Notes under the pieces: model-generated | Seen by the model: the letters and a program-made list of their open reading frames with translations, nothing else | Databases searched by the model: none | Told to the model about the DNA's origin: nothing | Made by a program: the position numbers and the translations under genes | Part shown: positions 39,436 to 51,367 of the stretch, piece by piece | Position numbering within the stretch: position 1 is the stretch's first letter | Layout: every line of letters starts with the position of its first letter | Source: Caproiciproducens faecalis | GTDB lineage: Bacteria; Bacillota; Clostridia; Oscillospirales; Acutalibacteraceae | Length of the DNA: 64,000 nucleotides | Assembly: GCF_019448085.1 (NCBI RefSeq) | Contig: NZ_JAGFNZ010000002.1 | Coordinates: forward strand, 1-64,000 | Direction of reading: 5' to 3'

Positions 39436-40500
39436 TTACTGCGGTAACTTGCTGTCGTTGTTGATGGCTGAAGAGGAGGAAGAGGAGCGACTGCCGGTTT
39501 CTGTGCTGCCGGAGCTGCTTTGCGTCTGAGAGGATGTAATCCCGTTTTTACTGGAAGCGGGCTGTGAATCTACTTTTTCCGGGTCACCGGATGAATCGGA
39601 AACACTGTCTTTGCCCGATTCACCGGAAGAAACCGGGGAATCCTCATCGTCCGTCTCATTGGCTGTATCCTGTGTATTTTTGTCAACGGCTGTGCCGGAT
39701 GAACTCGGCGCATCTTGGCCGTCCGCTTCGTCGATAGCGGTGTTGTCATCCTCCGGAGCGGAGCTGTTGGCTTTGGCTAACTTTTTCAATTCGTTGATCC
39801 TTTTCATAATATCCTTTACTTTGGCATCTTTGTATTCACTGACAGTGACGGAAGGATCAAGCGCCTGCAGCTTTTGTATTAAACTCAGTTTACCCGGAGT
39901 AAGGGCGAGCTTTTTAGCTTCGTCCCGTTTTTCCAGCGGAACGTGATCCTTGCTGATCGTTGCGGTCTTACGCTCTGATTGTATTGCCGTTTCTGCACCC
40001 TGTGCCGCGGCGTTTTCCAGTTCGATCGCGGTCGAAGCATCGTCGGTTTCAGAGGTCACGGAAATGACCGTTGACCCGTCTTGCGCGACAAAGCCCTTCT
40101 GCGCGGCTGACTTCACCAAAGTATGGACAGCGCTTTTGACATCCGCATCCATGATGTTTTGCCCGTTCAGAATCGTTGTTCCGTCGCTGTTATAAGCGGT
40201 TGCGGACACGATTCTCCCCAATCCATTTACGCCCAGCTCCACACTGGGGTTAATGTCAAGACTTAAATAGGAAGCCGGAGTTTTATAATAGGCAACCGTG
40301 GCCGCAGACATTGCGCACACAAAGAAAACGGTACAGGCGGCAATAACGACCCTTTGCCTCACGGACCGTGCGGACCTGCTTTTGGTTGCAGCGGGCGATG
40401 CATTTAAACTGGCAATAAGGTAAGCTTTTGTGTTCCTTTTCAGATCTTCCTTGGCACGGATATGGTTCATAGCGGCCCTAAAAATAGTTTCCATCATCAA
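39436..40500 (-). CDS. RsgI-like transmembrane anti-sigma factor
   Basis: A 354-residue type II membrane protein. Residues 1-49 are cytoplasmic and basic, a single membrane helix follows (VVIAACTVFFVCAMSAATVAYY, about 50-71), then an extracytoplasmic domain starting YLSLDINPSVELGVNGLGRI. The N-P inside DINPSVEL is the site of autoproteolysis known from RsgI proteins. A long Ser/Thr/Asp-rich tail (about 240-354) with QSSSGSTETGSRSSSSSS probably spans the wall. It overlaps the ECF sigma gene by 23 bases, the standard arrangement for a sigma factor and its inhibitor. Signal and protease are unknown. Unlike cellulosomal RsgI proteins no carbohydrate-binding domain is visible. Confidence 0.82.
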   Translation of the reverse strand: MMMETIFRAAMNHIRAKEDLKRNTKAYLIASLNASPAATKSRSARSVRQRVVIAACTVFFVCAMSAATVAYYKTPASYLSLDINPSVELGVNGLGRIVSATAYNSDGTTILNGQNIMDADVKSAVHTLVKSAAQKGFVAQDGSTVISVTSETDDASTAIELENAAAQGAETAIQSERKTATISKDHVPLEKRDEAKKLALTPGKLSLIQKLQALDPSVTVSEYKDAKVKDIMKRINELKKLAKANSSAPEDDNTAIDEADGQDAPSSSGTAVDKNTQDTANETDDEDSPVSSGESGKDSVSDSSGDPEKVDSQPASSKNGITSSQTQSSSGSTETGSRSSSSSSAINNDSKLPQ

Positions 40501-40978
40501 AACCTCTCAATTTGTTCTTTAAAATTGCTTTCGCCCTTCGTAGATGTGTGTGAATGGTATTCTGATTTCTGCCAAGAATCGTTGCAATTTCAGGAACGGA
40601 ATAGTCCTCAAAATAGAAGAGATAAATAACATTTCTATATTTCTGCGGAAGAGATAACACTTCACGCAGTACACCCTCTTCGGATTTATCCTCTATGGGA
40701 ATTTCTAAATTGTCGATGGAACAAGTATTTTTACGGAAAAAGCTTTTGTGGAAATCCTTGCATTCATTGATCGTAACTCTGCAGAGCCATGCCTTTTCAT
40801 GCGTGTCGTTTTCAAATGGTTTTTGATACTGCAATAGTTTTAAAAAGACATTTTGAAAAATGTCTTCCACATCCGCTTCATTCTTGAGATACATAAAGCA
40901 TATTCTTCGAACCATATCGGAATATTTGTCGAGAGCTTCTGTTACAACATCGTTGGTACCGGACGATGTTTTTTCCAT
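40478..40978 (-). CDS. ECF-type RNA polymerase sigma factor
   Basis: A 166-residue sigma-70-family protein. Region 2 reads YLKNEADVEDIFQNVFLKLLQYQKPFENDTHEKAWLCRVTINECKD, and region 4 LPQKYRNVIYLFYFEDYSVPEIATILGRNQNTIHTHLRRAKAILK. There is no region 3, as in ECF factors. The ATG at 40978 has GGGAGG 8 bases upstream, better than the ATG six codons before. It is the first gene of a unit with the RsgI-like anti-sigma factor, and probably directs transcription of itself and of surface genes such as that at 36334. Confidence 0.9.
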   Translation of the reverse strand: MEKTSSGTNDVVTEALDKYSDMVRRICFMYLKNEADVEDIFQNVFLKLLQYQKPFENDTHEKAWLCRVTINECKDFHKSFFRKNTCSIDNLEIPIEDKSEEGVLREVLSLPQKYRNVIYLFYFEDYSVPEIATILGRNQNTIHTHLRRAKAILKNKLRGFDDGNYF

Positions 40979-41135
40979 TTCATTTCCTCCCTTCATTACT
41001 ACATACGATTGAAAAGAACAAAAACTTTCAAAATTCGGTAAAGTTTATACAATTTGCATTCCAGTATATAGCACCCCGCTAAAACAGATCTGCTTATTCA
41101 GAGCGATTTCCGAGTCAAGAGCAGACGGTTTTGTT

Positions 41136-41174
41136 AAAAAAAGAGGGAGAAGTGTTTCTCAACACATCTTCCTC
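41136..41174 (-). terminator. terminator after the PAP2 gene
   Basis: GAGGGAGAAGTGTT and AACACATCTTCCTC form a stem with two mismatches and a TCTC loop. Read on the minus strand, seven U follow. The rest of the 300-base gap 40979-41289 shows no gene. Confidence 0.65.
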
Positions 41175-41289
41175 ATTAAGGATCTTCTCTGGGAGCTGCC
41201 TATACCATTTTACCGTCAAATTTAACCCAAGGTCAACTCCAATATTTACCGCTTTCCCTGCTTTCCGGGCCGAACCGCAGGAAACATCA

Positions 41290-41784
41290 TTATAAAAGCC
41301 AGAATCCGATGATTCCGATCAAAAGGCTGAACGCAACACCGGCGGCCACGTCCCTGGGAAAATGGATTCCGGCAAGGGGACGAATCACGGAGATCAGCAG
41401 CGCAATCACCGACATGGCAAAGCCGGCAGGCGGCCAGATATACCAGCAGGCAACCGCAATAATGGTCACCGACGCGACATGGCGGCTGGGGAAAGATTGC
41501 CCTTTCTTTTCGCGGGGAATCAATGGCTCTATCCCCAGTTTTTCATAGGGCCGCGGCAGATTCCAGCGCTTTCGCACAACGGTCACCGTACCGAAAACGG
41601 CGGCGGGTATCAGCAGTGCCTTGAAAAACCGCCCGTCTCTCCGGATTGCCAACATCGCCAGCAGAGCGGGATACGCGCAGTAGACAATACGCGGCAGCCA
41701 GAGGTTCAGTATCTTCATGACGTTTAACCATCCCGGCCGGAGTAAAAACCATTGTCTGATCTTGTCATATTGTTCTTTTTTCAA
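41290..41784 (-). CDS. PAP2-family phosphatase
   Basis: About 164 residues with four or five membrane helices. All three phosphatase signatures are present: KRWNLPRPYE (K-x6-RP type), FPSRHVAS (PSRH) and RPLAGIHFPRDV (SR-x5-H-x3-D type with P for S). The family dephosphorylates undecaprenyl pyrophosphate, phosphatidic acid or related lipids at the membrane. I choose a TTG at 41784 (AAAGGA 8 bases upstream); a longer frame from GTG at 41847 has no ribosome-binding site. No partner gene is adjacent. Confidence 0.8.
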   Translation of the reverse strand: MKKEQYDKIRQWFLLRPGWLNVMKILNLWLPRIVYCAYPALLAMLAIRRDGRFFKALLIPAAVFGTVTVVRKRWNLPRPYEKLGIEPLIPREKKGQSFPSRHVASVTIIAVACWYIWPPAGFAMSVIALLISVIRPLAGIHFPRDVAAGVAFSLLIGIIGFWLL

Positions 41785-41925
41785 TAGAAAAATCCTTTCT
41801 GCGATTCTCTCACGGTTGATTTCGCGGATAAGTGAGATTGTTCCCACTGTTTGATTGATTCCGTTTCGCCGATAATTTGGGGGCGAATGAGCAAACTAAT
41901 AAAAATCAGTAAAGGAGGAACTGAA

Positions 41926-42222
41926 GTGGATCAAGATCAACCGCAAAGCACACTGGCTCTGAACACACTGGACAATATCCCGTCACCCGCACCAAATGCC
42001 CGAAAGATCACCGGGCTGGTAAAAGAAAGCGGAAGGATAACCGGTTACCAGCTTTCAGACAGCACGGTTCTGGATAAAGCACAGGCTGTTGAGTTAGCCC
42101 GGAAAGGCGAAATTACCGGCGTGGGCATCGCGCACCGGGGCGACACCGAGTATCTCAAGTCGATTCCCGACGGCAGCGACAGCAACAACCTGAGCAACCT
42201 TCCCTCAATATCCCGTTCTTAA
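41926..42222 (+). CDS. DUF3892-domain protein
   Basis: A 98-residue protein. Residues 35-75 match the DUF3892 pattern: ITGLVKESGRITGYQLSDSTVLDKAQAVELARKGEITGVGIAHRGDTEYLKSIPDG. A disordered polar N terminus (DQDQPQSTLALNTLDN) and a Ser/Asn-rich C terminus flank it. Function is unknown; members occur singly or in multiples in Clostridia and Bacilli. GTG at 41926 is preferred, with AAAGGAGG 7 bases upstream. A terminator follows. Confidence 0.8.
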   Translation: MDQDQPQSTLALNTLDNIPSPAPNARKITGLVKESGRITGYQLSDSTVLDKAQAVELARKGEITGVGIAHRGDTEYLKSIPDGSDSNNLSNLPSISRS

Positions 42223-42241
42223 AAATCATAAACCATCCTAT

Positions 42242-42269
42242 CAGGGCGGCTGTAAAATCAGCCGCCCTG
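42242..42269. terminator. hairpin between convergent genes
   Basis: CAGGGCGGCTG pairs perfectly with CAGCCGCCCTG around a 6-base loop, between the DUF3892 and DUF4317 genes. No strong T run follows. Confidence 0.65.
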
Positions 42270-42303
42270 AAATTCGCCATTAGATATACGAAGCGACTCC
42301 CGA

Positions 42304-43434
42304 TCAGGAAATCCGAATGCTGACCCCGTTGACCTCCACCCCGTCATCCGCCCGGATCAGGATGTATTTTGAACCGTTAATCACCCTTGTTTCCAACAAA
42401 TCGCTGCGCTCCGGGTTAACCTGAATGGTCACGTCGGGGGTACGGACCTCGAACTTTTTTGTGTCTACAAGGTTCTGCGGACTGATTGCAACGTCGGCGC
42501 CAAACTCATCGTTGAATTTCTCATCAAAGGCATCCATATTGGACTCGGCAACTCCGCAGGATTTCAGGACGGATTTGACCGTACCCTTGGAAATTGCCAG
42601 AGGGTCAGCTTCTTTATTGGTTTTGTGTACTTCGATCATTTCGCTCAATTGCCCGTGGACCGATTGCAGGACTTCGTAACTGCAGTCGTCCGCAAGGGCT
42701 TCGCCCAGCACGGACTGAAAGGTCTCTTTCTGCGCGGCAGCCGGCATGGGGACGTCGGTCTTAAACACAGCGTCAACAAATTCCGCGTGATTTTCCTTAA
42801 CATCCCTTGAATAGTAGAGAGCGTTATAAATATTGGGACTGCGGTCGTCAAACGCCGGGAAAAGAAAGCCAAGCTCCGGCGGGGAAACCAGCCAGTCGGC
42901 TTTGCGGTTGTGGAACTCATTTTCCACAACATAGTAGCTTAACGCGGGCTGCGTCGGCTTGATTGGGCAGATGCTGCACAGGATATAGGAATACACTTCA
43001 GAGGAAGCGTCGTCCTGTTTTTCCCCGTCCTTGGAGCGGTAAAAGACATCATAGGTATCGTGTGTCAGCAGAATCAGATACTGGCCCTCCAAAGCGATGT
43101 TCTGAATGACCCGCTCAAAAAACGCCTGTACGGCGTCCTCGTTTTTCAGGGAGGAATTCCTCAGTTCCATAAGCAATTGATGTTCTTCCCCGGCGACAAC
43201 CTGCTCAGTGGCAAAAGAAAGATCAATCAGATTTTTCCCCAGGGTTCCGGACAGCGTACGCTTGAGAATGGCCAAAAACTTTTCGGATTCTTCCTGTGAC
43301 ATCAGCGCAAGTGATTGGTCGAATTGGGAAACAATTTCCCGCTTGTCATTGACAAAGCAGCCCCGTATATGGGTAATATTACTCTTGTCCTGCCGAAAAC
43401 GGCGGCGAATTTCAGAAACTTCCTTTTCGTTCAT
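42304..43434 (-). CDS. DUF4317-domain protein
   Basis: A 376-residue cytoplasmic protein of the DUF4317 family, common in gut and environmental Clostridia and without known function. It begins NEKEVSEIRRRFRQDKSNITHIRGCFVNDKREI, the family-typical N terminus, and has GQYLILLTHDTYDVFYRSKDG and FLFPAFDDRSPNIYNALYYS in the middle. The start at 43434 is supported by AGAGG 5-6 bases upstream and by the family N terminus; the frame is open for 26 more codons. It is the gene just past the terminator of the TnpB-like operon but is probably expressed separately. Confidence 0.85.
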   Translation of the reverse strand: MNEKEVSEIRRRFRQDKSNITHIRGCFVNDKREIVSQFDQSLALMSQEESEKFLAILKRTLSGTLGKNLIDLSFATEQVVAGEEHQLLMELRNSSLKNEDAVQAFFERVIQNIALEGQYLILLTHDTYDVFYRSKDGEKQDDASSEVYSYILCSICPIKPTQPALSYYVVENEFHNRKADWLVSPPELGFLFPAFDDRSPNIYNALYYSRDVKENHAEFVDAVFKTDVPMPAAAQKETFQSVLGEALADDCSYEVLQSVHGQLSEMIEVHKTNKEADPLAISKGTVKSVLKSCGVAESNMDAFDEKFNDEFGADVAISPQNLVDTKKFEVRTPDVTIQVNPERSDLLETRVINGSKYILIRADDGVEVNGVSIRIS

Positions 43435-43553
43435 AATAACCTCTTTTAAATATGTAATATCAGTATCGGCTGACTGAGAAAGGGCGGCGGGAAAGATTCT
43501 CTGCTCGAACAAATATTATAGCACATGGCTCCGCAGAGTTCCAGCCATTTGAA

Positions 43554-43714
43554 AAGACCCGACCCGAAAAGAGAAGAATCTCTTGGGTCAGGTCTTATTT
43601 AAATAGCTGCACTTGAACGGTTTTCACCGCCTCCGCTCAGCGGAATTGCTCTGCACACGGGTTTCCCCGCGTCTGCGGAAACATGATGCGGCAGCTAATG
43701 CACCCGGAATGATT
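43554..43714 (-). ncRNA. candidate structured RNA at the 3' end of the TnpB-like gene
   Basis: Read on the minus strand, the sequence right after the stop codon folds into several helices. A long-range stem AGCTGC/GCAGCT (43691-43696 with 43605-43610) closes three hairpins: GTTTCC..GC/GCGGAAAC-type (43661-43682), TCCGC-TGA-GCGGA (43632-43644) and CGGT-GAAA-ACCG with a GNRA loop (43618-43629). After an AT-rich linker comes a terminator, AAGACC/GGTCTT with a GACCC/GGGTC extension and an internal AAGAGA/TCTCTT hairpin, ending in UUUU (43554-43596). TnpB proteins use a guide RNA (omega-RNA) encoded at this place. Whether this is one is inference; it could also be an elaborate 3' UTR. Confidence 0.4.
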
Positions 43715-45256
43715 TCACTTCAGGATCAGGTGGACGGATTCCCGAAGATTCGCGGCCTGTGAAAGCTTTTTCCAAACCGCATATTTTTTGGGATCGTAAA
43801 TATAGGTTCCCCGCAGCCCTTCCAAAAATCGGCTGAGCTCGTCAAACAGGGACGTATCGTCTGCGGCGCCCGGCGGGAGCCGGTATTGGAAGCCAAGAAG
43901 CTGGCTGCGGCAAAGGAAACCGTCCTCTTTTTTAATGATCGTAATAGGCACCTTATCCTTGCGGTACCTGTCGAGTTTTTTCGCGAGATTTTCGCTGCCC
44001 ACCCACTCAAATTCGGTCGCACAGCCACAGTGGATGCACACAAAAAGCTCATCGGTCACCCGGTTGCGCCGGGTTCTGGTTCCGCAGCGCGGACAGGTAA
44101 GGAAAAGACTGTTCGCACTTACCTCAATCGGCGGCGGCAGCCCTTTTTCGGGTAATTTATATTTTAAGGTTTTTACCAGTGACGCGTAATCTCTGACAGA
44201 AAAACAGTGCTGTGCGTCTTCAGCCGAAACCGGGATTCTGTCGTTGGCTCCGCCGTTTGCCTCCAGTATCACCTGGGAACCATTCTTCACGGCAATTTCC
44301 GCTATTCTGTTTGACAGATAAAAAACCGTATTTTGATTCACTGATGCGGAAATAGAATTGTTTTCCAAAACAGCGCCGCCCTCGCCGCAAACCGTATAAC
44401 TTAATCCTCCCCGCGCATTGCGCGCAACCCCCATGGTTGTAACCGTTTCATCAACGATGCCGGAGCCGCACTCCATATAAATCATTAAGTAATACTTATT
44501 GCCTTTTTTAACCAGTCTGGCGGAATGCAGCAGCCGCGGCTGCTGCAGTGCCTGCTTCAGGTCGGCAAGCTGCTTTTTCCCAAAGGCCAGCGGAACAACG
44601 ATATAGCGCCTCTGTCCGGGAAGATTGTTCATATAATACGATCCTTCACAGACATATTTCAGGCTGAGCCCGCTGTTGCCATATTCGCCGGAAATGCTGT
44701 CCTTCCGGTTCAGAAGATATAATTTTGCATAAAAACGGTCTTTAAATTCATCGTACAGCAAGCAGTAATCTCGCTCCCTGGCATAGCGGCCAAAATAGAC
44801 GGAACGCGGCTTTCCCGCCTTTCCAACCAGTTTAGAACAGCGGTGTTCAAGGCCCTGTGTACCGATGTCTCCCGTGTCGAACAGCCCTATGCATTCCTCC
44901 ATTGCCAGCGAGTAGCGCGGAGCGTCCAAAAAAGCGAGCGGATACCCGGTTCGCGAGTTTTTCTGCTTTTGGGCAAGATAGGTTGCCGCAGTAGCGGCAA
45001 AATCTAATTTTAAGGAATCCTTGAAAGGCTGCACCCCAAACTGATTCAGGCTTTCGGAAGTTTCCTTATCAATCATTTTCAGTATCCGGTGCTGTGGAAC
45101 AGGCGCTTCTGTTTCGCACAGAATCCCGATTTCCTTCTCGTACCGGTCCAGAAGAAACTGCAGCGCCTGTGAATAACGCAGAAGAGCGGCATCCATCAAA
45201 TCCCGCTTATGCCTGCTGGGTTTGTAGATCTGCAGCATCAGTGTTTTATAAGTCAT
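43715..45256 (-). CDS. TnpB/Cas12-like protein with degraded RuvC triad, in the hydrogenase-sensor operon
   Basis: A 513-residue protein with the layout of IS605-type OrfB/TnpB. The N-terminal region (YKTLMLQIYKPSRHKRD...) and the beta/wedge-like segment (HSARLVKKGNKYYLMIYM) lead to a split RuvC fold. RuvC-I reads TMGVARNARGG, where GVDxG is usual, so Asp becomes Ala278. RuvC-II keeps Glu332 in QVILEANGG. A zinc ribbon follows (Cys388, 391, 407, 410), and RuvC-III reads CATEFEWVGSENLA, where the DxNAAxN Asp is Glu417. Cleavage activity is therefore unlikely. An extra C-terminal ~80 residues are unusual. The start overlaps the upstream PP2C-like gene by 4 bases (ATGA), so it is translated as part of the sensor operon, not as a free transposon gene. 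Confidence 0.68.
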   Translation of the reverse strand: MTYKTLMLQIYKPSRHKRDLMDAALLRYSQALQFLLDRYEKEIGILCETEAPVPQHRILKMIDKETSESLNQFGVQPFKDSLKLDFAATAATYLAQKQKNSRTGYPLAFLDAPRYSLAMEECIGLFDTGDIGTQGLEHRCSKLVGKAGKPRSVYFGRYARERDYCLLYDEFKDRFYAKLYLLNRKDSISGEYGNSGLSLKYVCEGSYYMNNLPGQRRYIVVPLAFGKKQLADLKQALQQPRLLHSARLVKKGNKYYLMIYMECGSGIVDETVTTMGVARNARGGLSYTVCGEGGAVLENNSISASVNQNTVFYLSNRIAEIAVKNGSQVILEANGGANDRIPVSAEDAQHCFSVRDYASLVKTLKYKLPEKGLPPPIEVSANSLFLTCPRCGTRTRRNRVTDELFVCIHCGCATEFEWVGSENLAKKLDRYRKDKVPITIIKKEDGFLCRSQLLGFQYRLPPGAADDTSLFDELSRFLEGLRGTYIYDPKKYAVWKKLSQAANLRESVHLILK

Positions 45257-45978
45257 AACACAACCTGCCTTGCAACATCCGGCGCCCCTCTTCTACGCAA
45301 GGAAGCGGAAGGTTCTATTCGGAAGGCCAGCGCGGATAAATCGCTTTTGGGTCTTCCAAAAGAAAGGGATTCCCCTGCCGCCAGGAGCAGCCGAACCGGT
45401 TCTTCCGCCGACATACCGGGATGATAGGCATTCTCCATATAAGTTTGTATGTTCCGCAAGCTCCAGCCATCCTTCAGATTTCTGTCCGCTCCGGCGTTTA
45501 GCATACCGCTGCCGACCGCGATCACCGTATCGGCCTGCTTGGCGGTGAGTTCCGTGCTCCGGATTGTTTTTCCCTGCAGTACCCGGCCGGCAGTCTTTAT
45601 GGTTACCGGCTTTCCGCGCCGGAGAAAAATCACATCGGGTGTTCCAAACTGCTCCACATAGATATGCCCGTCAAAACGCGCAAGAATCAGCGTGAAGCCA
45701 ATGTTGTTTCCGTTTTCCGCCTGTCGGCCTGACGGCTGGGACTCTACAAGCATGTTGGCAATGTGTGCGACGGACACCCCGCCGCCGCCCATCGTCTCCA
45801 TCATCCTGACGGCGAAGGATGTAAGAAGGTTTGCTCTTGCCCCGCCGTTTTCCCCGCCGGCAAGGATAGCCGTAACACCCAGTTCATTTCGGATAATTTT
45901 CATCCGGTCTTTACAGAATTCTTCCTGAAACTGGGGAATACACGCACTGTAGGTGTCAATTTTTACGATGTTCTTCAT
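45253..45978 (-). CDS. PP2C/SpoIIE-like protein lacking metal-binding Asp residues
   Basis: A 241-residue protein that aligns with the SpoIIE-type phosphatases linked to sensory [FeFe] hydrogenases. Its critical positions are changed. The usual LADGxGSG motif is ILAGGENGG (Asp to Gly41), and the VSDGV motif is AVGSGM (Asp to Ser157). Near the C terminus the expected DD pair reads SD (in PKSDLSALAF). Without these Asp residues Mn/Mg binding and phosphatase activity should be lost. The rest of the fold is kept (IYVEQFGTPDVIFLRRGKPV, GWSLRNIQTYM). It overlaps the sensor hydrogenase end by 23 bases and the TnpB-like start by 4. A binding or scaffold role is my inference. Confidence 0.7.
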   Translation of the reverse strand: MKNIVKIDTYSACIPQFQEEFCKDRMKIIRNELGVTAILAGGENGGARANLLTSFAVRMMETMGGGGVSVAHIANMLVESQPSGRQAENGNNIGFTLILARFDGHIYVEQFGTPDVIFLRRGKPVTIKTAGRVLQGKTIRSTELTAKQADTVIAVGSGMLNAGADRNLKDGWSLRNIQTYMENAYHPGMSAEEPVRLLLAAGESLSFGRPKSDLSALAFRIEPSASLRRRGAPDVARQVVL

Positions 45979-47683
45979 CCCCCGTCAGCGGAACGATATT
46001 TTCGGTCAGCTGCAGAAGCGCGACTTTGGTTTCGCAGGTTGTTTCTCCCAAAAGATCCGCAATTTCCTGTACGACCCGCATCTGCTTATTCACGATCTCT
46101 TTTGCAAAGGCGGCGGTTTTCTCCGTAACCTTACGCTGCTCTTCCAGCACCTGTTCCTGCTGGGTAATATCCTTCAGAAGCACAAACATCAGCTGGTTAT
46201 TGCTCACATTTACCACTGTCTGTTCCAGAATCACACCCAGTCCGCTGTAAGACTGTTTATGGTTCAGAATGTTTTCCCCGCTCTGCAAAACTTCCTGAAA
46301 ATCCGCGCTGGGAAGGATGGCGCTGATCGGCTGCCCGACGCACTGTTCGTCAATTTTCAGCAACTTCGCGGCGGAAGGATTGAATTGCTCTATATTGAGT
46401 TGATCGTTAATGACCAGAATCCCGGTTGGCGTGTGTTCGACAACCGTATTGGACATACTTTCGGCCAGTTCCCGCATATAGGGAATGCACATATTGATAT
46501 TTGCTTTTCCCTGCAGAACGGCGATCGCTTTTTCCCGGCAGGTATTGTAGCCGCAGCATCCGCAGTTCAGCTCTTTCTCCGGCGTCGTTTTTCCGGTGGA
46601 AGCCAGAACGCTGCGGATTTTTTCTTCATCGATCGTCTCTTTCTTGGCGGAACGGTTTCTGAATTTTTTGGTAAACTGTGACGCTACTCCTTCTGTAAGG
46701 GCGGGCGGCGCTTCGTTCATCTGCTTCACATTGTTGACCAGCACATTTTTTGAATTTAAAAAGCTGTGATTCATCAGTTTCAGAATAGGGCCGCCCAGGC
46801 ATCCCCCGGAACAGGCGTTTAACTCCAAAAAATAGCCGGACAGATGGTCCTGAACAATAGAATCCAGAATTTCAATGCAGCGGTCCACACCGTCGACACT
46901 CAGGCACTCATAGGTGCCGCGCTCTTTTTGCCGCAGATTCTTGATGATCCCCCCCGGCGCGGGATAATAACGGGGCAGGGTATTTTTTAAGGTGCGGCTG
47001 TTCTGGTCGCGCCGGGAGAGATCTACTTTCTCTTCATGGAACCATTTCTCCAGTTCGTCAAAGGTGAGCACGGAAAATAAGAGATTGCCGTTGTCGGGGT
47101 CGGCACACTCATATTTCTTGGAAATACAAGGCCCGATAAAAACAATTTTTGCCCGAACGCCGTAAATCTGTTTAATCATGCGCGCATGCGCAATCAACGG
47201 AGTCACTACCGGCGCAAGCTGCGGGATCAGCGAAGGATAGTTCTTTTCTACAAGCAGATTTACCGAGGGACAGGAGGTGGTAATGATGTTCTGCATTTTA
47301 TGTTCCCGAATCAGCTTTTCATACTCACGGGTAACTTGTTCCGCGCCGATAGCCGTTTCCTCCACATGGGTAAATCCCAGCTTTTTCAGCGCCGCGGATA
47401 TTTTTGTAATACCGGTCTGCGGAAAAGCCGCAATATAGGACGGGGCCAGAGAAACATAAAGTTTCTCCCCCGCACGGATCGCCTGTTTTACCTTAAAAAG
47501 ATCGCTGTTGATATATTTTGCGTTCTGCGGACAAATCAGCAGGCAATTCCCGCAATAAATACATTCGTCGCCAATAATGTGAATCTGTTCATTGCGGTAT
47601 GCAATCGATTTTACCGGACAATTGCGAATGCACTTATAGCAGTTTTTACAATCAGATTTATTTAAACCAATAATTTCTTCCAT
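45956..47683 (-). CDS. sensory [FeFe] hydrogenase-like protein with PAS domain
   Basis: A 575-residue protein of the putative H2-sensing [FeFe] hydrogenases (group C type). There are two N-terminal [4Fe-4S] sites (CKNCYKCIRNCP, CIYCGNCLLICP), then an H-cluster domain with TTSCPSV, GPCISKKYE and ELNACSGGCLGG, so all four H-cluster Cys are present although TSCCP and MPC are altered. Next is a further Fe-S site (CGCCGYNTC...C, about residue 385) and a PAS domain (about 430-530: VVEHTPTGILVINDQLNIEQFNPSAAKLL), followed by a short coiled coil. There is no kinase domain. It heads the operon with the PP2C-like and TnpB-like genes. It likely senses H2 or redox state and passes the signal by protein contact. 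Confidence 0.87.
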   Translation of the reverse strand: MEEIIGLNKSDCKNCYKCIRNCPVKSIAYRNEQIHIIGDECIYCGNCLLICPQNAKYINSDLFKVKQAIRAGEKLYVSLAPSYIAAFPQTGITKISAALKKLGFTHVEETAIGAEQVTREYEKLIREHKMQNIITTSCPSVNLLVEKNYPSLIPQLAPVVTPLIAHARMIKQIYGVRAKIVFIGPCISKKYECADPDNGNLLFSVLTFDELEKWFHEEKVDLSRRDQNSRTLKNTLPRYYPAPGGIIKNLRQKERGTYECLSVDGVDRCIEILDSIVQDHLSGYFLELNACSGGCLGGPILKLMNHSFLNSKNVLVNNVKQMNEAPPALTEGVASQFTKKFRNRSAKKETIDEEKIRSVLASTGKTTPEKELNCGCCGYNTCREKAIAVLQGKANINMCIPYMRELAESMSNTVVEHTPTGILVINDQLNIEQFNPSAAKLLKIDEQCVGQPISAILPSADFQEVLQSGENILNHKQSYSGLGVILEQTVVNVSNNQLMFVLLKDITQQEQVLEEQRKVTEKTAAFAKEIVNKQMRVVQEIADLLGETTCETKVALLQLTENIVPLTGDEEHRKN

Positions 47684-48032
47684 TCAAAATACTCCAAATT
47701 AATGAACCCAATTAATATTGTTTTATCCTACCATAAATCAAATCAAAAAACAACGCTGCCGGTACTTGTTTTCATTTATTGTATTATAAATATGGTTTTT
47801 AAATACAAAGTGTCTTTTTGTTAAAATATTAACTTATCGAATGCGTAAATTCCACTGTTCATGGGACTTTACACTGTTTACGGTCTGTTTCGGGTCCGGA
47901 TAAAGCTGCCGAAATCCTCCTGAAAATCCGGATTTCATTGACGATTTGCTTTTGACGTGTTAATTTTACTTTGCTATTAAGAAGTGATTTTCGCAGCATA
48001 GAAAATTACAGGAAAAGGATTGGTGTGTTTTT
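47684..48032. promoter_or_regulatory. divergent control region between the sensor operon and the hydrogenase operon
   Basis: On the plus strand TTGACG (47952-47957) and TATTAA (47975-47980) are 17 bases apart, a plausible promoter for the ferredoxin-hydrogenase genes. Upstream of it GAAATCC/GGATTTC (47911-47917 and 47930-47936) is an inverted repeat that could bind a regulator. The minus-strand half is very AT-rich with a TATAAT at 47780-47785 region but no clear -35 box. This is the most likely target of any locus-specific regulator, including the TnpB-like protein. Confidence 0.45.
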
Positions 48033-48284
48033 ATGGTGATTGAAGTATATATTGGAAAAACGTTGCGGTTAACGTCCTTCGATGTGTTAAAGGACTTTCA
48101 AAGGCTGATCAAACAGAATCATCTGGAAAACAAAGTTTCACTGAGCGCTTCCCTTTGCGTCGGTGATTTTGCCCAATCAGGAGTACCGGTGAAAATAGGA
48201 GAAGCTTTTACCGACTTTGTTTCAAAAGATAACCTGGAGCATGTGTTTGGGAAATATGTCCTGCAGGCAGTGGGTTCCTGCTGA
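48033..48284 (+). CDS. thioredoxin-like [2Fe-2S] ferredoxin homologue lacking most cluster ligands
   Basis: An 83-residue protein with the fold pattern of the small thioredoxin-like ferredoxins that accompany [FeFe] hydrogenases: strand-loop VYIGKTLRLTSF, a helix DVLKDFQRLIKQNHLENKV, strand LSASLCVGDFAQSGVPVKIGEAF and a final helix NLEHVFGKYVL. In functional members the cluster uses CxGxxC and CxGxC. Here these positions are Tyr6, Leu11, Cys42 and Phe46, so only one of four ligands remains. It cannot hold a [2Fe-2S] cluster in the usual way. It lies directly upstream of the hydrogenase gene, which starts 79 bases after its stop. The gene is intact, which suggests retention for a structural role. 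Confidence 0.6.
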   Translation: MVIEVYIGKTLRLTSFDVLKDFQRLIKQNHLENKVSLSASLCVGDFAQSGVPVKIGEAFTDFVSKDNLEHVFGKYVLQAVGSC

Positions 48285-48363
48285 AACAGAAACCGAAAGG
48301 TTTCCGATACAGTCTGATTCTATTCCCCCATCATGAGGGGTTGATTTGTGGAGGGTGTGTGAA

Positions 48364-49782
48364 TTGCTGGTTTTTGATTCCAATGTACAGGAACTGAAAT
48401 ACAGAGTACTGAAAGAGGTGGTTCGGCTTTCCGAAAAAAATGAGCTGACCACAAAACTGTATGATATCCCGCGAACGATTGTACCCGGCCCGAAGGCTAC
48501 TATGAGATGCTGTATTTACCGGGAAAGGGCAATTGTGGAGGAACGCGTAAAAATGGCGATGGGTGGAAACCCAGACAACAAAAACGTTGTCGAGGTGATT
48601 GACATTGCCTGTGAAGAATGTCCCAGCAAACGGTTTCTTGTTACGGAAACCTGCCAGGGCTGCATTGCGCACCGCTGCCAGGCCGCGTGTCCGGCAAAGG
48701 CAATTACCTTCGTGAACCATAAAGCGGTCATCGACCCGGACAAGTGCAAGGGATGCGGCCAGTGCATGCGGGCCTGCCCCTACCATGCGATTACAGAGCA
48801 GGAACGGCCGTGCATCAATGCCTGCAAAGCGAAAGCAATCTTTTTGGATGAGCAGAACAAAGCGGATATTGACCCGGATAAATGCATTCGCTGCGGGGCA
48901 TGTGTCCGTCAGTGTCCTTTCGGTGCCATAGTGGATAAGTCATATGTTCTGAATGTCATGCAGATGATTAGAGACTCCAATCACGGAAAGAACTACAGGG
49001 TTTACGCCGCCGTTGCGCCCGCAATCGCAAGCCAATTCTCTTACGCCAAAATCGGGCAGATTGTTTCAGGCCTGCATCAAATCGGTTTTCACAAAGTGGT
49101 GGAAGCCGCCCTTGGCGCGGACATCACTGCGCGGAAAGAAGCGGAGGAACTGGCTGAGAAAGAGTTTCTGACGACCTCCTGCTGCCCCGCATTCGTTCAG
49201 TATATTAAGACAAACTTCCCTGAATTGGAACAAAACATTTCCGGCAACGTTTCTCCGATGGTGGAAACAGCCCGATTGATTAAAATGATTGACAAAACGG
49301 CGAAAGTGGTATTTATCGGCCCCTGCATCGCGAAGAAAATGGAATTTCAGAAGGAAGAACTGCACGGGATCGTCGACTCCGTCATTACTTTTGAAGAACT
49401 GCAGGCCATATTCGGCGGTTTGAATATTCAGCCGGAGGAACTGGAAGAAAAGAAGCTGAACGACGCTTCTTACTTCGGCAGAATTTTTGCCAGAAACGGC
49501 GGAGTAACGGAAGCGGTATTCAACGTCCTGCAGCAAGAAAATTCTGATTTTCAGGTAGACCCGGTCATTTGCGACGGACTGGAAGAATGCCGCGCCGCAC
49601 TGCTCAAGGCTTCTAAGGGAAAGCTGGCTGAAAACTTTATAGAGGGTATGGCCTGTGTCGGCGGATGTGCCGGCGGAGCCGCCTGCCTCAGCTTAAACCA
49701 CGCGATGAAAAATAGAATGAGCATTGATAATTTTGCAAAACAGGCACACACCGGAATCAATGAATCCGTACCTGTCAGATAA
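48364..49782 (+). CDS. [FeFe] hydrogenase (group B type)
   Basis: A 472-residue iron-only hydrogenase. Its N-terminal part has a Cys-rich segment (CEECPSKRFLVTETCQGCIAHRCQAACP) and two [4Fe-4S] ferredoxin motifs (CKGCGQCMRACP, CIRCGACVRQCP). The H-cluster domain has all three canonical signatures: TTSCCPAF (about residue 275), GPCIAKKMEF and FIEGMACVGGCAGGAACLS. It should interconvert H+ and H2 in the cytoplasm with ferredoxin. The start is probably TTG 48364, nine bases after GGAGG; earlier codons in frame are too near that site. Its placement opposite a sensory hydrogenase suggests H2-dependent control of its expression. Confidence 0.9.
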   Translation: MLVFDSNVQELKYRVLKEVVRLSEKNELTTKLYDIPRTIVPGPKATMRCCIYRERAIVEERVKMAMGGNPDNKNVVEVIDIACEECPSKRFLVTETCQGCIAHRCQAACPAKAITFVNHKAVIDPDKCKGCGQCMRACPYHAITEQERPCINACKAKAIFLDEQNKADIDPDKCIRCGACVRQCPFGAIVDKSYVLNVMQMIRDSNHGKNYRVYAAVAPAIASQFSYAKIGQIVSGLHQIGFHKVVEAALGADITARKEAEELAEKEFLTTSCCPAFVQYIKTNFPELEQNISGNVSPMVETARLIKMIDKTAKVVFIGPCIAKKMEFQKEELHGIVDSVITFEELQAIFGGLNIQPEELEEKKLNDASYFGRIFARNGGVTEAVFNVLQQENSDFQVDPVICDGLEECRAALLKASKGKLAENFIEGMACVGGCAGGAACLSLNHAMKNRMSIDNFAKQAHTGINESVPVR

Positions 49783-49800
49783 TATAGGAGGCTTGTGATT

Positions 49801-50175
49801 ATGTTGGATTGTAAATTGTGTAATTACTATCAATCGGTTTCGGGACGGGATTTCCGCGGAATGGATCTGGGGATCTGCGAGTTCACCGATATGCTGTTTG
49901 TAGAAGATACCGACAATATGATGGGAGAATATCCCTGCAGAAAGATAGAATACAACGATTATCTCCGCAAAAAATCAGCGGCCAGCATCGATACCGTCGC
50001 TGCAGCGAAATTAGTGGACGCGGAACTGTTTCATGAACTGAAGCAGTGCGGAGTTTCGATGATAAAATTTCCGGAAGGAATCATTAAAAAATGTTTTGAG
50101 AACCAGCTGGAAAAGAAGAGCCGGGAAATGCACCGCGAAGTACAAGTAAACTTACTTGAAACTAGAAACGCATAA
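49801..50175 (+). CDS. hydrogenase-linked small protein with N-terminal Cys residues, function unknown
   Basis: A 124-residue protein of no family I recognise. The first 50 residues hold LDCKLCNYY, GICEF and EYPCRKIEY, so a CxxC...C...C arrangement could bind a zinc or iron-sulfur site. The remainder is helical and charged (AAAKLVDAELFHELKQCG, FENQLEKKSREMHREVQ). It starts 18 bases after the hydrogenase stop with AGGAGG nine bases before the ATG, so it is co-transcribed with and probably related to the hydrogenase. A GTG two codons earlier is too close to the ribosome-binding site. An assembly or regulatory partner is conceivable. Confidence 0.7.
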   Translation: MLDCKLCNYYQSVSGRDFRGMDLGICEFTDMLFVEDTDNMMGEYPCRKIEYNDYLRKKSAASIDTVAAAKLVDAELFHELKQCGVSMIKFPEGIIKKCFENQLEKKSREMHREVQVNLLETRNA

Positions 50176-50235
50176 AGTCGGATGTCTCCTCATTCGAACT
50201 GTTTGTGGCGATTCTGTTTTAAATAATTGCTAGGT

Positions 50236-50284
50236 GACAAAAAGGTTTGAATTCTGTATAACACAGGACTCAAACCTTTTTGTC
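50236..50284. terminator. bidirectional terminator
   Basis: GACAAAAAGGTTTGA and TCAAACCTTTTTGTC are perfect 15-bp arms with A and T tracts on both sides. It lies between the convergent hydrogenase operon and the HD-GYP gene and can serve both. Confidence 0.9.
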
Positions 50285-50296
50285 TTTATCGTAATT

Positions 50297-51367
50297 TTAA
50301 ATTTTCACTACGCCCGTTATCGTAAGATTTGCTAAATTCCTATTATTCTTAAGGTCTAAGTACATCGGTTTGTTTTCGTTGCTGCACACGACTTTGACTT
50401 TTGGCCTCAGCACGCAGTCTTCATAGTTTTCAACAACAATGGCAGTAAGGCCATTGTTCAGCAGTACACAGGTTCCAAGCGGAAATGCGGCGACTTTTCT
50501 GGTGAACAGTTGGATCAGTTCCGGGTCAAACAGCGTTCCAGCGCCTCCCATCAGATATTCCATCACCTCCGAAGGCATCATTGCCGGTCGATACGGACGG
50601 TCGGATGTCATAGCGTCGAAGACATCCGCAATGGAAATAATACGGCTGAATCGATTGATACCGTCCCCTGACAGCCCGGCCGGATAACCGCTCCCGTCCA
50701 TGCGTTCGTGATGCTGCAAAATGCCAATAAGGCCTAACAGCGGCAAATCCAGATTTGCGCGGGTAAGGTATTCATATCCCAGGTCAGGATGCTTTTTGAC
50801 CTCTTCATACTCTTCGGGAGTTAACGAATCCGTTTTATCAATAATACCTTTGCTGACAAACACCTTGCCGATATCATGCAGCAAAGCGCCCAGCCCAAGT
50901 TTAAAAAGATCTGTTTCATTCAAGCCAAGCGTCACCCCCATCACAATGGAAAGAACGCCGACATTGACGGAATGGAAATAGGTGTAGTTGTCATAGGATT
51001 TCAAATCGATCATATTGACCATGATGTTCTGGTTCAAAATAATTTCTTCCACTATATCCTGCACAATCACTTTTGCATTATCGGCCATGATCTGGTTGAA
51101 TCCGGTGGTCAGGGTTTGATTATACATATCCTTGACTGCTGTGACCGCCGAATTTCTCAGCTGGTCGTTAATAACGGTCTTGATCTCAATCTCGTCCGAC
51201 AGCTTGTCGGAAATGTAGACACCCTGAAACCCATTATGCGCTATATGAGAAATATACGACGGTTTCAGGGGCTGTCCCTGCTGCAATAGCAGGCTGCCGT
51301 CGTTTCCGTATAAATTTTTTGCCAGCACCATGCCTTCACGAAGACAAAGAGTCGGGACATATCGCAT
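50297..51367 (-). CDS. HD-GYP domain protein (probable c-di-GMP phosphodiesterase)
   Basis: A 356-residue protein with an N-terminal domain of unknown type (RYVPTLCLREGMVLAKNLYGNDGSLLL) and an HD-GYP catalytic domain. LLHDIGKVF supplies the HD pair (about residue 170), HHERMDGSGYPAGL gives the GYP motif and ISIADVFDAMTSDRPYRPA is the typical follow-up segment. Such enzymes hydrolyse cyclic di-GMP. A short C-terminal extension after the domain is beta-rich. The ATG at 51367 has GGGAGG 7 bases upstream. It is a single-gene unit with a terminator on each side. Confidence 0.88.
   Translation of the reverse strand: MRYVPTLCLREGMVLAKNLYGNDGSLLLQQGQPLKPSYISHIAHNGFQGVYISDKLSDEIEIKTVINDQLRNSAVTAVKDMYNQTLTTGFNQIMADNAKVIVQDIVEEIILNQNIMVNMIDLKSYDNYTYFHSVNVGVLSIVMGVTLGLNETDLFKLGLGALLHDIGKVFVSKGIIDKTDSLTPEEYEEVKKHPDLGYEYLTRANLDLPLLGLIGILQHHERMDGSGYPAGLSGDGINRFSRIISIADVFDAMTSDRPYRPAMMPSEVMEYLMGGAGTLFDPELIQLFTRKVAAFPLGTCVLLNNGLTAIVVENYEDCVLRPKVKVVCSNENKPMYLDLKNNRNLANLTITGVVKI

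Follow-up and report, generated by a model that had tools for sequence, protein, structure and literature searches.

The subject of this study is a gene group in a 64,000-nucleotide (nt) stretch of Caproiciproducens faecalis (contig NZ_JAGFNZ010000002.1 of assembly GCF_019448085.1, positions 1 to 64,000; called the window below). In this group a TnpB-like gene stands behind the genes of a sensory [FeFe] hydrogenase (HydS) and a PP2C homologue, and is itself followed by a conserved RNA element (Table 1). The hydrogenase is assigned to the HydS type by its H-cluster and PAS domains, and judging from its family it would sense H2. A profile search of public genomes gives 23 loci, and in all of them HydS and then the PP2C homologue precede the TnpB-like gene on the same strand, which bears out the gene order noticed in an earlier, sequence-only reading of the window. 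The hosts include Caproiciproducens, Christensenella, Caloramator, Petroclostridium, Ruminiclostridium, Pseudobacteroides and others. A search for related loci from the single window protein found no relative.

Table 1. Features of the locus, in window coordinates
Feature	Position	Strand	Remark
TnpB/Cas12f-like protein, RuvC-I dead (A278), extra C-terminal domain ~430-513	43715..45256	-	
Conserved RNA element: guide-RNA-like scaffold and first 5 nt of slot	43601..43706	-	
Putative guide slot TATTTAAATA, flanked by the pseudoknot strand and the terminator	43596..43605	-	
Intrinsic terminator hairpin, then T run	43555..43595	-	dG -26
AAAAACCA, putative target-adjacent motif upstream of HydS	47793..47800	-	
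TATTTA, agreeing over 6 nt with the slot of the window RNA	47787..47792	-	
Predicted -35 (TTGTTT) of HydS promoter	47748..47753	-	prediction
Predicted -10 (TAGGAT) of HydS promoter	47725..47730	-	prediction
HydS-type [FeFe] hydrogenase with PAS domain	45956..47683	-	Fe_hyd_lg_C 8.8e-49, PAS_8 1.6e-5
PP2C/SpoIIE-like phosphatase homologue, 241 aa	45253..45978	-	SpoIIE E=9.6e-4, below cut-off
Divergent monomeric group-B [FeFe] hydrogenase (context)	48346..49782	+	

The structural check of the window protein agrees with the TnpB/Cas12 architecture first proposed for it, showing a TnpB/Cas12f fold with RuvC and zinc ribbon. The RuvC-I Asp, read earlier as replaced by Ala278, is missing from 27 of 27 homologues, and the intact D-E-D triad of a TnpB nuclease is absent. 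Profile alignment also favours Glu417, as formerly assigned, at the place of the RuvC-III Asp; Ser421 was tried as the equivalent and rejected. The zinc ribbon is retained, as had been claimed, and the homologues, with open frames of 480-540 amino acids (aa) and 24-67% identity, share four invariant Cys. Nuclease-dead repressors of TnpB descent (TldRs) have reportedly been described. Beyond the range matched by Cas12f, the C-terminal residues form an extra alpha/beta domain that could be a contact for RNA polymerase or for the PP2C protein. Its isolated structure is predicted with a pLDDT (predicted local distance difference test) of 88, and the top Foldseek match is the putative antitoxin 3k6q (E=0.012); an antitoxin fold of this kind was not adopted, the match being too weak.

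Directly 3' of the stop codon the same RNA element is present in 29 of 29 downstream regions read, beginning in the window 8 nt past the stop codon. It is built from hairpin P1, whose loop includes GCTGC, a stem that varies, the short hairpin P3 and, on the 3' side, GCAGC, which forms a pseudoknot with the P1 loop (in the window GCTGC 43691-43695 with GCAGC 43606-43610). In alignment A3 with 25 rows, 97.6% of the cells are paired, falling to 18-53% in slid controls, and 54 cells carry double changes against 16.8 after shuffling. Double changes are found in four of the five P3 pairs, and the pseudoknot is 100% paired, with AU in place of GC at one pair in five rows; P1 pairing is incomplete in L009 and L010 (L marks a locus and G a genome throughout). 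A covariance model gives one strong match (E <=6.2e-11) beside the gene in 22 of 22 protein-bearing genomes, which mostly overlap the seed (outside it are G776, G620, G558, G708 and G510), and no match at E 0.1 in eight of eight genomes without the protein. A conserved putative guide RNA is encoded beside the gene, as in TldRs. Rfam shows no match over the element in window 41500-50500 at E up to 1, nor in eight loci at the gathering score. No similar RNA was recognised by eye at ordinary TnpBs close to the family (nine frames including L012, L014, L058 and L059), and no CRISPR-like repeat array was found within window 41000-50500, the stretch searched.

A hairpin with a dG of at most -14 and a T-rich tail starts 5-17 nt past the pseudoknot strand in 30 of 35 regions. 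With the terminator so close, only about 10 nt are left where the guide of a TnpB would begin. This slot starts with TATCT in most species, with TATTT in the window's genus, L020 and G044/G104, with TATTA in G133 and with GATTA in G306. Within the loci, exact matches of the 22 nt past the scaffold are not longer than shuffled ones, bar single cases, and intergenic DNA shows no enrichment of the seed k-mers by themselves (for 6-mers, 41 occurrences against 50.4 expected).

The same short tail is found in DNA beside a longer motif. Promoters of HydS, of the bifurcating hydrogenase and of iron-type alcohol dehydrogenase (iron-ADH) and Nfn-type genes carry AAAAACCN followed by 5-10 nt of the RNA tail. 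At many loci this takes the form AAAAACC[GAT]TATCT upstream of HydS and of nuoE, the first gene of the bifurcating hydrogenase operon (nuoE-nuoF-hydA), and in the window's genus AAAAACCATATTT instead. Upstream of HydS, NuoE or ferredoxin (Fd) genes in 28 loci, the commonest 5-mers following AAACCN are TATCT (7 loci) and TATTT (5), the next reaching 2; on the antisense strand and in control loci other 5-mers lead. The pattern AAACC.TAT[CT]T is present upstream of HydS or NuoE in 12 of the 28 loci in sense and in none in antisense (shuffled mean 0.145), and in none of 18 HydS loci without the TnpB-like gene. A separate scan of 1.5 kb upstream in 17 of these 18 controls gave no AAACC.TATYT either, the AACC or GACC form of the motif occurring in two of the 17. 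Sites with an AAACC flank that fit the first five bases of the locus's own slot are likewise found at 12 of 28 loci, namely 11 with TATYT and that of G133, which lies in an additional stretch. Four more own-slot sites have a degenerate flank or lie just past the region limit (L034, L097, L095, L092). Overall, slot and site agree over 5-10 nt beside the putative target-adjacent motif (TAM) at 16 of 28 loci. A de novo k-mer count places CCGTATCTA in 8 of 28 loci and 0 of 18 controls, A/T-rich and Rex-like k-mers ranking above it or level with it.

We then report the sites in whole genomes, with AAAACCNTATCTA searched in 42 of them, 14 with the system and 28 without. The 14 have 27 matches, including 14 upstream of redox genes, 12 inside reading frames and one intergenic with no gene behind it. 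The redox genes are HydS or Fd-HydS, NuoE, in G576 three genes of NuoE type and, in G506, an iron-ADH and an Nfn-type FAD/NAD protein; gene names come from hidden Markov models for G506, G576 and G044, and elsewhere from similarity to proteins of L030 and L024. Among the 28 genomes without the system there are 30 matches, and of the 27 examined 25 are inside frames, two are intergenic and none stands at a redox gene. For the window's genus AAAAACCNTATTT was used. Its four system genomes have 13 matches, one upstream of HydS in each, five inside frames, two intergenic elsewhere and two unclassified, and five congeners without the system have 10, eight of them inside frames, one unclassified and one intergenic, 96 bp before an unrelated gene. 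A further AAAAACCGTATTT, antisense inside the TnpB-like gene (window 44321-44333(+)), is probably due to chance.

Tail and DNA site are shown to change jointly among TATCT, TATTT and TATTA. In all four species of the window's genus slot and site alike have T at position 4 (TATTT/TATTT); in the TATCT species that bear sites they alike have C, G776 excepted. In G133, with tail TATTA, the only AAACCNKATTA of the genome lies in the hydABC promoter, where the slot match extends over 10 nt (TATTAAATAA) and the predicted -10 is 78 bp away. The match is 8 nt at three of three sites in G576, 10 nt at one of two in G479 and 8 nt at one of four in G506. When the slots are permuted among the species, p is 2e-5 with 17 species and 0.0019 with 10 representatives. 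These tests exclude G306 (picked up by a search pattern that contained its own tail), G044 (mismatch), L035, L037, L038 and the TATCA variant site of L022; with L035, L037, L038 and the L022 variant included, another permutation had p=5e-5 over all rows and 0.026 among the TATCT ones. The per-position agreement count takes in G306 and G044.

Taking together the fold, the loss of RuvC, the gene order, the RNA structure, the motif, the slot-site agreement and the predicted spacing given below, all of them read in the sequences, we consider it likely that the locus encodes, as the output of the HydS H2/redox sensor, a transcription regulator with hard-wired RNA guidance, probably an activator. 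A relative of TnpB/Cas12f would have been retained as a chromosomal transcription regulator, binding the RNA encoded directly downstream to form a small ribonucleoprotein (RNP). The fixed tail of about 10 nt before the terminator would serve as a very short guide, and the RNP would read AAAAACCN as TAM and 5-10 nt of DNA complementary to the tail as seed. At the promoter of its own HydS operon it would act in autoregulation, helping RNA polymerase, and in other genera it would target the promoters of the bifurcating hydrogenase (nuoE-nuoF-hydA; hydABC), iron-ADH and Nfn-type genes. Its activity would probably be set by the H2/redox sensor HydS and by the PP2C protein, whose genes appear to be cotranscribed with its own. 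The former suggestion of an RNA-guided DNA-binding protein acting on genes nearby or distant is strengthened by the downstream RNA, the covarying slot and promoter motif, and the sites at redox genes.

The position of the sites suggests the direction of regulation. Class I activators such as CRP bind at preferred distances upstream of the -35, and the sites here behave alike, recognition being proposed in this case to be partly RNA-DNA pairing. For 22 sites we measured the distance from the CC to the -10 of the best predicted sigma-70 promoter at least 20 bp downstream. Nine of them lie at 78-80 bp, with a shuffled mean of 0.55 and a maximum of 3, and this group includes HydS, NuoE and ADH promoters of several genera; six lie at 68-69 bp, three at 65 and one at 76. 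The window HydS site is 65 bp before its predicted -10, where a wider search range finds an alternative promoter scored 0.5 higher. L023, L026 and G506 carry another site, 30-31 bp downstream of the first and 49 bp ahead of the -10. Because the sites keep one orientation and a preferred spacing upstream of the -35, an activator of the class I kind is most likely. The same RNP with the same targets could instead be a repressor of the TldR type, blocking transcription of the hydrogenase and alcohol genes. This we hold to be improbable, though a RuvC-dead fold with an adjacent RNA is what one expects of a TldR, and TldRs are presented as repressors in the part of PMC13418256 available. Sites in one orientation upstream of the predicted -35, 19 of the 22 having their CC 49, 65-69 or 76-80 bp ahead of the -10, are poorly placed for a roadblock, which suggests the activator rather than the repressor. 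Rex-like operators follow the predicted -10 at five of the 22 sites, and in the HydS/nuoE promoters of L021, L023, L026 and L096 the Rex-like TTGTTAA..TTAACAA stands directly after the -10, 88-91 bp from the CC. A Rex-like operator and an RNP site on the same promoter would mean two redox inputs.

Slightly less probable again is an RNA that does not guide, being a structural cofactor or processing signal, with AAAAACCNTATCTA read by protein alone, be it the TnpB-like protein or a different regulator, and with TATCT shared by RNA and DNA through chance or common descent. The agreement is short and most species have the tail TATCT, so most of it amounts to one conserved 5-mer, and G776 retains its site with a mismatch. 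However, positions 4 and 5 change in RNA and DNA together in separate clades (the window's genus and G133), the agreement of G133 spans 10 nt, and the site was not found at the 18 HydS loci without the gene. A decaying transposon TnpB stuck in the operon without function is scarcely credible, since despite the lost RuvC residues its frames stay open over 480-540 aa at 24-67% identity with four invariant Cys, the gene order holds at 23 of 23 loci and the RNA is kept with compensatory changes.

Several results weigh against the RNA-guided regulator. Concerning the agreement itself, it is 5-6 nt in most species and gains little on average past position 6, and permutation is weaker within the 13 TATCT species (p=0.009) and within nine of them (0.023). 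At 12 of 28 system loci there is no site fitting the own tail in the regions read, among them Christensenella (L091, L028, L032), Caloramator (L024, L040), L027, L033, L037 and L038. In the window's genus HydS is the sole convincing target. The nuoE promoter of G776 (L094/L224), AAAAACCTTATTT, has TATTT against TATCT in the RNA slot, and the G306 site AAAAACCAGATTAATAATAG (L220 3744(-)) fits the GATTA slot with no recognisable gene behind it. In G044 (L223, 6417 / 8029), AAAAAACCATATTATATAA precedes an iron-ADH gene that adjoins HydS, its predicted -10 being 77 bp away, and another site, AAAAACCATATTA, stands on the opposite strand just before HydS; agreement fails at position 5, the slot TATTTATATAA differing by one T. 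As for the promoters, -35 and -10 positions are predictions, three of the 22 sites (G576, G506) are off-spacing at 55, 102 and 148 bp, and the 22 are not independent because promoters within a genus share descent. The motif was moreover noticed with the tail in mind, the AAAAACC flank alone having made the signal visible, and the later motif counts, coming after this look, re-test the same loci. Held-out genomes with the system were sought and none new was found, and the controls belong partly to other families, meaning that absence of the motif there may partly reflect ancestry.

The link to HydS is drawn from the gene order and from reports on hfsA and hfsB. In the available sections of PMC5707799 and PMC11837493, deletion of hfsA or hfsB raises adhE expression, and Rex and tsac_0415 are named as possible players. 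HfsB/HydS is suspected to regulate, and the route from the H2/redox signal to gene expression is left unsettled, in what these two and PMC10055695 offer in the portions seen. For R. albus, an adjacent Ser/Thr kinase was proposed as partner (cited in the part of PMC5707799 at hand). The earlier proposal of a tie to H2 or redox sensing stands at the level of sequence, and its coupling to HydS/PP2C is read from the operon structure. Between the PP2C and TnpB-like genes, five loci (L021, L022, L023, L027, L038) have a gap of about 2.8 kb. In all of these except L022 it holds a gene of 867-873 aa read as AdhE-like, which in L027 matches Fe-ADH proteins, and the gap of L022 is equal in size. Such an AdhE-like gene links the module to ethanol formation. 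A fuller picture, which we favour by a small degree, is a natural chromosomal RNA-guided activator made of a nuclease-dead TnpB with a hard-wired guide of 6-10 nt, serving as the DNA-reading output of an H2-sensing hydrogenase, placed as a class I activator would be and working with Rex operators to divide the flow of electrons between H2 and ethanol. The analysis offers a concrete candidate for the DNA-reading end of HydS signalling, with exact sites (AAAAACCNTATYT) to mutate. If true, several families of Clostridia would have domesticated an RNA-guided protein to regulate core metabolism, its guide reduced to a few fixed nucleotides, and a natural activator derived from TnpB might be at hand.

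Compared with known systems, the kind is that of TldR, RNA-guided regulators from TnpB. The two share TnpB descent, an inactivated RuvC, an RNA encoded beside the gene and promoter targets, and they differ in the tail of about 10 nt before a terminator, the long AAAAACCN motif, the sites upstream of the -35 and the several redox genes found here. TldRs are tied to flagellin, prophages and CsrA in the accessible part of PMC13418256, while the window family is tied to HydS-PP2C. So short a guide is not absurd, since 6 nt suffice for TldRs in vivo (Walker 2026, PMC13418256, in the text available). What is new against the TldR descriptions is this family itself, with an H2 sensor as partner, a fixed and very short slot that a terminator closes, a set of redox genes as targets and sites placed like those of an activator. 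Unlike in Cas12f, a group including the dCas12f-guide RNA structures 9n9c/9n9m (compared by titles), the RNA is single and fixed, no repeat array lies in the stretch searched, and the extra C-terminal domain is outside the matched range. The TnpB of IS200/IS605 is alike in fold, zinc ribbon and an RNA directly 3' of the gene, but the present gene lacks the RuvC-I Asp in every homologue, is single-copy in its genome and has no transposase among the eight neighbours scanned. The HydS/HfsB systems with the HfsC phosphatase (Thermoanaerobacterium, Ruminococcus albus) also join a PAS-hydrogenase to a PP2C, and no TnpB-like protein or RNA is named in the parts of PMC5707799 and PMC11837493 available. 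In the open-licence literature we found no report of TnpB with hydrogenase, or of an exapted TnpB/dCas12f regulator of this kind.

Among 59 relatives searched, the TnpB-like gene is present in three of 10 congeners (58-67%) and at full length in one of 49 others (G044, 40%), G018 giving a weak partial match only. Of 391 genomes sampled from the class, 15 match at E <1e-120, the own genome included, and 13 further ones match weakly, like ordinary TnpBs; in a phylum sample at E 1e-40 the own genome is the sole match among 398. HydS is commoner, occurring in 17 of 33 genomes without the gene (E 1e-100). The record 'Calditrichales bacterium MX18-03' (L036/L092), whose matching genome G576 is listed in the window's class, has a locus that groups with Clostridia, and its title looks misassigned.

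Some minor observations concern the neighbours. The PP2C relative in L030 is recognised at E=7.7e-18. The window homologue is short against 390-392 aa in most distant relatives and has AGG for the ADG motif, which L018 retains, and for these two reasons it may be without phosphatase activity. A sigma-factor gene adjoins an RsgI-like anti-sigma gene at window 39436-40996, not linked to the operon. Small Cys-rich proteins without family match adjoin hydrogenase genes at window 49795-50175 and L118:1124-1309(-), and are alike by eye.

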